Of a DNA stretch of 64,000 bases, positions 2,488 to 60,348 are shown in pieces. The stretch spans positions 47,985 through 111,984 of the forward strand of contig NZ_MTKN01000005.1 of the NCBI RefSeq assembly GCF_001975825.1, in the 5' to 3' direction. The notes below the pieces were generated by a model. It worked only from the letters and a program-made list of their open reading frames with translations, was not told where the DNA came from and ran no database searches. Both the position numbers and the translations under genes were made by a program. Numbering within the stretch: the first letter of the stretch is position 1; the number at the start of each line of letters is the position of its first letter. This DNA is from [Flexibacter] sp. ATCC 35208 (lineage in GTDB: Bacteria; Bacteroidota; Bacteroidia; Chitinophagales; Chitinophagaceae).

Positions 2488-2539
2488 CCGCAAAAAAAGA
2501 GGGTGTATCTGAAATTAGATACACCCTCTTTTTTTGCGG
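2488..2539 (+). terminator. Terminator hairpin with 22-bp perfect stem
   Basis: Arms 2488-2509 and 2518-2539 are perfectly complementary around the loop TGAAATTA. The A-run on one side and T-run on the other let it act in both directions between the convergent oxidoreductase and mrp genes. It is also the 5' hairpin of the dispersed three-arm element. Confidence 0.85.
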
Positions 2540-2614
2540 ATACCTGATGGAGCCAGATTCCACTGTATGCATTTCTCAGGAGTTTCATTTATTAATGATA
2601 CACCTTCTTTTTTT
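2488..2614 (+). repeat. Dispersed three-arm intergenic element, copy 1
   Basis: The element has arm A (core GAGGGTGTATC), its complement A' directly after a small loop, a conserved core of about 60 bases (starting GCGGATACCTGATGGAGCC), then a second complement A'' (GATACACCTTC plus T-run) at 2597-2614. A can pair with A' perfectly or with A'' through one G-U pair. The core holds a possible CCTGA/TCAGG stem. A GC-rich tail (GCCTGTGGCCAGCCTTAAT) follows at 2620-2638 and is shared with other copies. Related copies are at 25065-25180, 40040-40163 and 60222-60348. Confidence 0.8.
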
Positions 2615-13058: not shown

Positions 13059-13197
13059 AGTGCAAACGTAAGAAATACTAGTAAAAGTAAAATTTACTAT
13101 TTATTACTGACAATTATTATAAAAACAGCACATATGAATAGTTTTATTTCATTAAACAGAACAATACACCAAATATTACAACTTAAATAGTTCATTT

Positions 13198-13205
13198 TAT
13201 CTTTC
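13198..13205 (+). promoter_or_regulatory. Candidate -7 box for metE leader
   Basis: TATCTTTC, one base off TAnnTTTG, lies just before the cobalamin riboswitch and would start the transcript near 13212. Confidence 0.4.
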
Positions 13206-13209
13206 TTCA

Positions 13210-13325
13210 TAGGTTTGTGTAGAAATTTGTGCTGCGGTATGGAACCGTGTGCAAATCACGGGCTGACGCGCAACTGTAAATGACGTATGCTGTCATGAAG
13301 CCAGATACTTGTCGCAGGCAGATAT
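13210..13325 (+). ncRNA. Cobalamin (B12) riboswitch upstream of metE
   Basis: The leader contains the conserved core of the cobalamin aptamer in order: GGAACCGTGTGCAAATCACG (13241-13260), GGGCTGACGCGCAACTGT with the B12-box core GCAACTGTAAA (13270-13280), a variable stem (TGACGTATGCTGTCA), then GAAGCCAGATAC (13297-13308). CTGCG near 13233 can pair with CGCAG near 13313 to close it. A T-run (GATATTTTTTC) follows 25 bases before the metE start, so control may be by early termination or by blocking translation. Expected effect from the family: B12 switches off the B12-independent methionine synthase. Confidence 0.92.
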
Positions 13326-13352
13326 TTTTTCACCTTATTAAATAATGTAAGT

Positions 13353-25064: not shown

Positions 25065-25180
25065 AAAAAAAGAGGGTGTATCTGAAATTAGAACACCCTC
25101 TTTTAATTCGGATACCTGATGAAGCCAGATTCCATTTTATGCGTTTCTCAGGAGTTTCATTTATTTATGATACCCCCCTC
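25065..25180 (+). repeat. Dispersed three-arm intergenic element, copy 2 (diverged)
   Basis: Arm A (GAGGGTGTATC, 25072-25082) is followed by A' (GAACACCCTC), a core starting GGATACCTGATGAAGCC and ending GGAGTTTCATTTAT, then A'' (GATACCCCCCTC) near 25169-25180. This is the least intact copy: A/A' lacks one pair and A'' has an indel. The GC-rich tail GCCTGCGGCCGGCTT follows at 25190-25204, touching the hemG stop. It lies between hemG and pntA, both on the minus strand. Confidence 0.75.
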
Positions 25181-40039: not shown

Positions 40040-40163
40040 AAAAAATGAGGCTGACCAAAAAGTAATGGTCAGCCTCATTTTATTCGGGTACCTGATGGAG
40101 CCCTGTCATCGTTTAAGCAATTGTCAGGACCTTCATTTTGCTTTTTGGTCAGCCTCATTTTTT
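40040..40163 (+). repeat. Dispersed three-arm intergenic element, copy 3 (different arm sequence)
   Basis: Arm A (ATGAGGCTGACC, within 40040-40062) is followed by A' at 40067-40081 (15-bp perfect hairpin), a core with the shared GGGTACCTGATGGAGCC and GTCAGGACCTTCATTTTG, and A'' at 40141-40163. Here A plus flanking bases pairs with A'' over 23 perfect base pairs, longer than the A/A' hairpin. The arms share no sequence with copies 1, 2 and 4, yet the layout is the same. It lies between the convergent oxyR and M48 genes. Confidence 0.8.
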
Positions 40164-40170
40164 GGGTCCA

Positions 40171-40207
40171 GCCCAAACGCTTTTGCCTCCGGCAAAAGCG
40201 TTTGGGC
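40171..40207 (-). terminator. Terminator of M48 peptidase gene
   Basis: A 17-bp perfect stem (GCCCAAACGCTTTTGCC with its complement) encloses a three-base loop just beyond the peptidase stop. Confidence 0.8.
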
Positions 40208-40220
40208 TTATCTTATTTAA

Positions 40221-50732: not shown

Positions 50733-50815
50733 TTTCTGAAAATAGTTTTCATTCCCTGTTGGTGAATTCCCTCTTTCATGAAGGTTTTTATTTAAAAGGA
50801 AAAATCTCTTTCATT

Positions 50816-60221: not shown

Positions 60222-60348
60222 CCAATAAAAAAGAAGGTGTATCATTAATAATTGAAACTCCTGAGAAACGCATACAATGGAATCTGGCTCCATCAGGTAT
60301 CCGAATTAAAAGAGGGTGTATCTGAAATTACACCCTCTTTTTTATTGG
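60222..60348 (-). repeat. Dispersed three-arm intergenic element, copy 4
   Basis: On the minus strand, A (60348-60329) can pair with A' (60320-60308, 13-bp hairpin) or with A'' (60241-60222). The outer pairing spans 20 bp including a copy-specific CCAAT/ATTGG extension, with one G-U that exists only in the minus-strand transcript. The core matches copy 1 closely (GGATACCTGATGGAGCCAGA). The GC-rich tail GGCCTGCGGCCGGCTTAAT follows (60210-60192 on the minus strand). It lies between the convergent murI and oligopeptidase genes. Confidence 0.82.

Follow-up and report, generated by a model that had tools for sequence, protein, structure and literature searches.

The intergenic element at positions 40,040 to 40,163 of the analysed stretch of DNA (the window, 64,000 nucleotides) raises the question of why one 5' arm, A, should be followed by two downstream arms, A' and A'', that are both complementary to it and that lie on either side of a conserved core. 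Such an arrangement could describe an RNA with two alternative folds, as the preliminary description of the locus proposed, or it could reflect the architecture of a piece of mobile DNA. Our analysis points to the latter, and we consider it very probable that the family is a mobile, non-coding MITE that moves by inverted-repeat-replacing transposition and brings its own hairpin with it.

All four copies reported for the window can be seen in the sequence in the order A, A', core, A'' (Table 1), and exact matches to the core pattern GGNTACCTGATGNAGCC occur in the window only at these copies; allowing up to three mismatches gives 7 matches against 1.35 expected, a number reached in 0 of 100 shuffles. 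The A/A'' stem of copy 3 is indeed a perfect one of 23 bp (AAAAAATGAGGCTGACCAAAAAG / CTTTTTGGTCAGCCTCATTTTTT), and the outer stem of copy 4 does pass through copy-specific flanks (CCAATAAAAAAG / CTTTTTTATTGG). These outer flanks (CCAATAAAAAA / TTTTTTATTGG) fit the residue of a replaced hairpin, that is, the stem of a target whose original form is not in view. The arms of copy 3, described earlier as entirely different, do differ from those of the other copies but follow a plan in common with them (GAGG-TG-...AAAAG), and copy 2 has imperfect arms (A' = GAACACCCTC, A'' = GATACCCCCCTC). Copies 1, 3 and 4 are located between convergent open reading frames (ORFs), as reported, and copy 2 between ORFs of the same direction. 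A simple terminator scan found the hairpin of copy 3 to be terminator-like on the minus strand (40042–40081) and that of copy 4 on the plus strand, and called no terminator at copies 1 and 2.

Table 1 Copies of the element in the window, their parts, and the element-free states of further polymorphic loci.
Feature	Position	Strand	Remarks
Copy 1	2499–2607	+	109 bp; from sequence; in both strains (G000 and G059)
Copy 1, A	2499–2509	+
Copy 1, A'	2518–2528	+
Copy 1, core	2538–2554	+
Copy 1, A''	2597–2607	+
Copy 2	25072–25180	+	From sequence; imperfect arms; in both strains
Copy 2, A	25072–25082	+
Copy 2, A'	25091–25100	+
Copy 2, core	25110–25126	+
Copy 2, A''	25169–25180	+
Left stem remnant, AAAAAAT	40040–40046	+	Putative left remnant of the replaced hairpin stem at copy 3; common to G059
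Copy 3	40047–40156	+	110 bp; in G000, absent from G059; from sequence and strain comparison
Copy 3, A	40047–40062	+	Left terminal inverted repeat, GAGGCTGACCAAAAAG
Copy 3, A'	40067–40076	+	Foldback complement of A; hairpin 40047–40076
Copy 3, core	40086–40102	+	GGGTACCTGATGGAGCC; from core pattern and alignment
Copy 3, A''	40141–40156	+	Right terminal inverted repeat, CTTTTTGGTCAGCCTC
Right stem remnant, ATTTTTT	40157–40163	+	Putative right remnant of the replaced hairpin stem at copy 3; common to G059
Copy 4	60233–60337	-	105 bp; from sequence; in both strains
Copy 4, A	from 60337	-
Copy 4, A'	60322–60312	-
Copy 4, core	60302–60286	-
Copy 4, A''	60243–60233	-
L007			Element-free in G059: hairpin AAAAAAAGCTTTTGTCGAAAGACAAAAGCTTTTTTT
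L042			Element-free in G059: hairpin AAAAGCTCCTGCCTCTGGCAGGAGCTTTT
L049			Element-free in G059: 49-nt palindrome
L050			Element-free in G059: hairpin AAGGCTGACTTTATAAGTCAGCCTT
L046			Element-free in G059: hairpin AAAAGAGGACCAATGGTCCTCTTTT beside a ~1.4-kb insert
L127			Reverse direction: element in G059, hairpin AATATTTTCCGGCTGCTTCGCAGCCGGAAAATATT in G000

The window lies in contig C327 of an 8.63-Mb draft genome (G000), whose genus we take to be Chitinophaga. In this genome the core pattern is found with at most one mismatch at 46 places (21 exact and 25 with one mismatch), and a covariance model built from 33 aligned elements found members (E ≤ 0.01) in 78 of the 79 genus genomes, with at most 42 candidates scored per genome, so that counts of 42 are lower bounds; the suggestion of a genuine dispersed family is thereby borne out. 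BLAST with copy 3 produced matches in 29 of 35 relatives of the same genus and in none of 23 genomes from other genera of the order. The exact 21-base core pattern occurs in 89 stretches of the public genome collection, and the 80 of these that were listed come from Chitinophaga, Niastella, Terrimonas, Flavihumibacter, Paraflavisolibacter, Pseudoflavitalea, Pedobacter, Mucilaginibacter and several MAGs; at 27 non-Chitinophaga loci that we inspected, the anatomy was mostly the same and the arms varied. Family members are non-coding and ~105–110 bp long (104–119 bp among 148 unique elements, nearly all with a length listed). These 148 elements are unique by sequence including 10 flanking bases, and include both members of an orthologous pair when the two strains differ there, as well as many near-identical copies from one MAG. 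Placement at gene ends extends to the family: among 118 elements, 75 are in convergent, 42 in tandem and one in divergent context, against 46, 110 and 47 of 203 background spacers obtained with a similar caller (30 of the 148 elements were dropped because one side or the other had no 100-aa ORF within 350 bp). Compound copies also occur, either as head-to-head pairs with one hairpin in common (L006 and L037/L038) or in tandem (L008, L017).

The window has a collinear counterpart in G059, the complete genome of another strain of the species, which of the four copies lacks only copy 3. Where G000 reads AAAAAAT-GAGGCTGACC...GGTCAGCCTC-ATTTTTT, G059 reads AAAAAAT-GAGGCGTGCTTTCAGCACGCCTC-ATTTTTT, which is a hairpin with no element. 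The cut at this site is placed between 7 and 12 bp into the former stem, the ambiguity arising because GAGGC is common to element and hairpin. We compared 17 element loci between the two genomes (the four window copies, ten joined flank pairs and three further loci), and found 7 to be polymorphic, 9 shared (copies 1, 2 and 4; L016, L020, L021 and L028, judged by flank spacing and model hits; L136 and L138) and one not comparable (L041, where only the left flank aligns with G059). At all seven polymorphic sites the element-free strain has a terminator-like hairpin, and at six of them the exchange is clean on both sides, the flanks being identical in both strains as far as the exchanged piece. 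The exception is L046, where the hairpin in G059 has an IS110-family element next to it: the insert there (L147/L148) contains an ORF over the IS110-family cut-off (NF033542, 145.3 bits against 140). The flush stems at the six clean sites measure 10, 16, 13, 24, 11 and 16 bp and were equalled by 10, 2, 19, 0, 21 and 17, respectively, of 200,000 random length-matched intervals of the G059 region.

We also looked for hairpin turnover without the element, and most of the difference clusters of at least 6 columns between the window and G059 looked like tandem-repeat or short-repeat changes; in addition to copy 3, there were a segment of ~54 nt and a loop change in copy 4. The ~54-nt segment (50733–50784, GAAAATAGTTTTCATTCCCTGTTGGTGAATTCCCTCTTTCATGAAGG) follows a hairpin in the window and is absent from G059; a very similar segment is found directly upstream of the core in L001, L002, L004, L010 and L029, and it may be another mobile repeat. 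At a terminator-like hairpin at 40170–40208, one arm shows a T to C change between the strains and the other a 5-nt deletion that compensates for it, with pairing kept, so paired changes do occur locally. Part of this hairpin (40175–40203, CGCTTTTGCCTCCGGCAAAAGCG) recurs at about ten other places in G059 among the BLAST matches listed, and may be a repeated terminator motif.

Across the 148 elements, the bases immediately outside both ends are inverse-complementary in a fraction of 0.716 at position 1 (0.455 with shuffled flanks), 0.777 at position 2 (0.668) and 0.615 at position 3 (0.521), values reached by 0 of 2000 shuffles at each position, and a weak excess continues from position 5 outward. 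Runs of at least four complementary positions are present in 44 of the 148 (0.297 against 0.142 shuffled), and some elements, such as L224 and L242, retain residual copy-specific stems of 8 to 12 bp. Direct repeats of 3, 4, 5 or 8 bp at the ends of these 148 elements show no excess; 2-bp direct repeats are found in 14 of 148 against 5.0 expected (0 of 500 shuffles as high), an excess that palindromic dinucleotides would give, though this is not proved.

An exact terminal-repeat pattern run over 40 genomes returned mostly pairs of element ends, and odd matches (L090, L095 and L102) led to insertion sequences (ISs). Complete ISs were found in genomes of the same genus. L121 in G027 carries its 514-aa ORF between the left end GGGGCTGTCTCAAAAGTAATTGGGACAGGCCC and a right end finishing in TTTTGAGACAGCCCC; three others, L177, L178 and L179 (G010, G082 and G099), have repeats GGGGCTGACCAAAAAG / CTTTTTGGTCAGCCCC enclosing stop-to-stop frames of 546–547 codons. 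The L121 and L177 proteins, which are 36% identical, score 443.2 and 380.7 bits against the NCBIfam IS1182-family transposase (cut-off 270). Each end of copy 3 is identical to the corresponding end of the L177 IS at 15 of 16 bases, and five identical 100-bp copies in G000 have ends that match it at 16/16 and 15/16 bases. The left ends of the ISs fold back on themselves, much like A with A'. Judged from these end sequences, A and A'' are the terminal inverted repeats of a mobile element, an origin in a transposon-derived MITE that the preliminary description had itself set against its RNA reading and that the IS-end matches now indicate for these two arms.

In the two strains, the distribution of this IS type is uneven. 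The L177-type transposase N-terminus is present in G000 at two contig ends only, with the rest of the gene unassembled, as would be expected where a repeated IS breaks the assembly; apart from these N-terminal stretches and fragments, no complete IS is assembled in G000, where the L095 transposase matched only two fragments. Two IS copies in G000 have their left junction exactly at the base of G059 hairpins of 12 and 18 bp (equalled by 30 and 6 of 20,000 random starts), the right junctions being unassembled. The same N-terminus is matched at E ≤ 1e-8 in 6 of the 79 genus genomes, and has no match at E ≤ 1 in the complete genome G059. No partner IS was found for the subfamily to which copies 1, 2 and 4 belong, IS-matching terminal repeats being established for other arms only. 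G059 does have the family, with six matches to the domain PF13751; it contains L319, one of 514 codons and four copies of a 508-codon IS. L319 is a 323-codon IS1182-family remnant (237.3 bits, under the cut-off) with a right end, TCATTTATTTATGGGACGCCCTC, resembling that of copies 1, 2 and 4 and their subfamily, and could be a lead, though only a lead, to the mobiliser of that subfamily. No IS1182-type match was obtained by tblastn (1e-8) in the sequence around L200–L309, the loci from the covariance-model and 21-base core searches, so the copies there stand without an adjacent transposase gene in the sequence examined. The 508-codon IS of G059 (L322–L325), a second IS1182-family IS of 1745 bp with repeats GAGGGCACTGAAAAAG, has in 4 of 4 copies entered a terminator-like hairpin at its loop and duplicated 9 bp of the target.

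These observations suggest a model in which a hairpin-forming terminator would be cut symmetrically, in the stem or at its base, and lost, with the element taking its place without a target duplication; the cutting would presumably be done by an IS1182-family transposase. A', as the complement of the left repeat, would fold the left end into a hairpin, like the IS ends. If the lost hairpins were working terminators and the A/A' hairpin acts as a replacement terminator, landing in a terminator would be tolerable, and this role could explain the lasting complementarity of A' to A. The arms would differ between subfamilies according to the repeats that their respective transposases recognise. Insertion polymorphism between the strains points to mobility, as far as a comparison of two genomes can indicate it, and the direction of exchange is suggested by the fact that G000 has both the IS and five identical copies of the element. 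A counter-point is that G059, in which the L177-type N-terminus is not matched, holds one copy (L127) absent from G000, meaning that a copy was gained by G059 too or lost by G000.

If the arms are those of a mobile element, it has to be asked how much of their joint change still calls for an RNA switch. In the 33-sequence alignment, covariation was 0.384 for A:A'' (0.192 shuffled; 84.8% of cells pair) and 0.371 for A:A' (0.196 shuffled; 76.1% of cells pair), both also above slid controls, with shuffles that ignore relatedness. The earlier observation that the arms change together between subfamilies therefore holds by pair counts uncorrected for relatedness. RNA folding of the isolated copies (z of -5.1 to -10.0) favours the A/A' hairpin in copies 1 and 2 and the A/A'' stem in copies 3 and 4, so both alternative pairings exist on paper. 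In a bistable regulatory RNA, pairing of A with A' would bring about termination, its pairing with A'' would close a stem around the core, and the three arms would be kept complementary by selection acting on the transcript; that both pairings are predicted and covary between subfamilies, that the core is conserved in sequence in the alignment and that A'' is partly complementary to A in 122 of 148 elements (≤ 3 mismatches) all agree with such a switch. However, the A/A'' pairing is explained by the terminal repeats of a mobile element with insertion polymorphism, and it is the sole consensus structure found by RNAalifold. The proposed CCTGA/TCAGG stem of the core did not withstand analysis, since its covariation score of 0.070 equals the shuffled mean (0.070), although it pairs in 74.5% of cells, above slid controls. 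Also, the local hairpin (A:A' with ≤ 3 mismatches of 11) is present in 104 of 148 elements and wholly missing in 44, and copy 2 in G059 carries changes relative to the window that are uncompensated, for example T to C in A. No Rfam family reached threshold for copy 3, around which there were only sub-threshold matches at E-value level and no convincing family; over the window the gathering score was reached only by a cobalamin riboswitch away from the copies (13195–13330, RF00174 at 38.4 bits, preceding a 799-aa ORF). On this evidence we hold a bistable RNA kept by selection to be extremely improbable.

The two downstream arms nevertheless differ in how they pair. In the 104 elements with the local hairpin, A:A' has a mean of 0.58 mismatches with 59 perfect, against 2.51 for A:A'' (equal registers; 2.68 in a fixed register) with 12 perfect, a contrast that is partly built in because the hairpin class was chosen on A'. 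The 44 elements without the local hairpin have a mean of 1.0 mismatches for A:A'', and over all 148 elements the means are near-equal (2.20 for A:A', 2.06 for A:A'') and well under the shuffled value of 5.55, so that A'' has not decayed to chance. A' is thus the tighter arm where it is present, and A'' is partly complementary throughout, as a terminal repeat should be; its complementarity to A is explained by terminal repeats as well as by a switch. A' goes beyond a plain terminal repeat, its foldback being carried by IS ends too, and this part of the puzzle stands. It may be kept with A because the hairpin is needed, as a terminator or at the IS end, or because templated repair corrects imperfect palindromes.

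Repair leads to another way of reading the exchanges, in which host processing of palindromes (hairpin cleavage, templated repair, recombination) would swap gene-end hairpins, the element being just one of the pieces and no transposase being needed. Exchanges centred on palindromes, together with the change in both arms of the hairpin at 40170–40208, are in keeping with this; but IS-matching terminal repeats delimit the inserted piece, the ISs themselves have the same left junctions, and the set of five identical copies suggests a burst in G000, the IS-bearing strain, all of which makes host processing very unlikely. Alternatively, an ordinary MITE of another transposase with a preference for terminator regions might insert conventionally, with the hairpin lost later, a course of events to which the missing IS for subfamily I and the entry of the second G059 IS into terminator loops with 9-bp duplications would lend themselves. 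Set against this, at six sites the exchanged piece has both its boundaries at the base of the hairpin, and direct repeats of at least 3 bp are not in excess, and we regard it as the least probable of the alternatives considered.

A MITE that replaces its target hairpin differs in some respects from familiar systems. Bacterial MITEs are short and non-coding, with terminal inverted repeats in common with an IS and many intergenic copies, and their target-site duplication is usual but not universal. The present family resembles them in being short, non-coding and dispersed between genes, in its IS-matching terminal repeats and in its insertion polymorphism; unlike MITEs generally, it would replace a target hairpin without conventional target duplication. 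REP/BIME palindromes, which are associated with RAYT transposases, are likewise dispersed extragenic hairpins at gene ends, whereas the element described here is longer, with paired terminal repeats, a non-palindromic core and a DDE-type IS that has the same ends. The 1745-bp IS of G059 belongs to the IS1182 family too and also lands in terminator-like hairpins, but there it goes into the loop, duplicating 9 bp, and the stem survives, while the element replaces the hairpin.

The closest likeness is to staphylococcal systems. IS1272, an IS1182-family member from Staphylococcus, replaces target inverted repeats without duplication (PMC5678879); the targets of TnSha1/IS1272 are hairpins, several of them confirmed terminators, with part of the stem bluntly deleted (PMC4923244); and inverted-repeat-replacing transposition is known for IS1272 and its composite transposons in staphylococci (PMC5678879, PMC4923244). 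The present family shares with IS1272/TnSha1 a hairpin target, often a terminator, that is lost wholly or partly with no target duplication, along with the lack of primary-sequence specificity, 16-bp terminal repeats and, putatively, an IS1182-family transposase (PMC5678879, PMC4923244). It differs in that the mover is a ~110-bp gene-less element with a conserved core, found in Bacteroidota and in 78 of 79 genomes of its genus. The portion of PMC5678879 considered makes no mention of a MITE using IS1272-type transposition, and the literature matches listed contained no report of a non-autonomous element with inverted-repeat-replacing transposition or of a Bacteroidota case, nor any paper describing the present element, including among miniature elements in Chitinophaga. 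We file the family as a new MITE family working like IS1272.

With two genomes of the same species, the states before and after exchange are visible at seven element sites, and on the left at two IS sites, which allows the cut positions to be read directly. The second IS1182-family IS, with its 9-bp duplications in terminator loops, permits a comparison of two modes inside a single family. More generally, the case warns that three-arm covariation in repeats can stem from transposon ends and not from a switching RNA. Across the genus, we consider it an evenly balanced possibility that the element removes intrinsic terminators of the host and brings its own in A/A', with selection for the replacement terminator, or hairpin-templated DNA correction, keeping A' complementary to A as the repeats drift. 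If this is true, these bacteria would be constantly trading terminators of their own for ones carried by a transposon, and the host would pay little for it.
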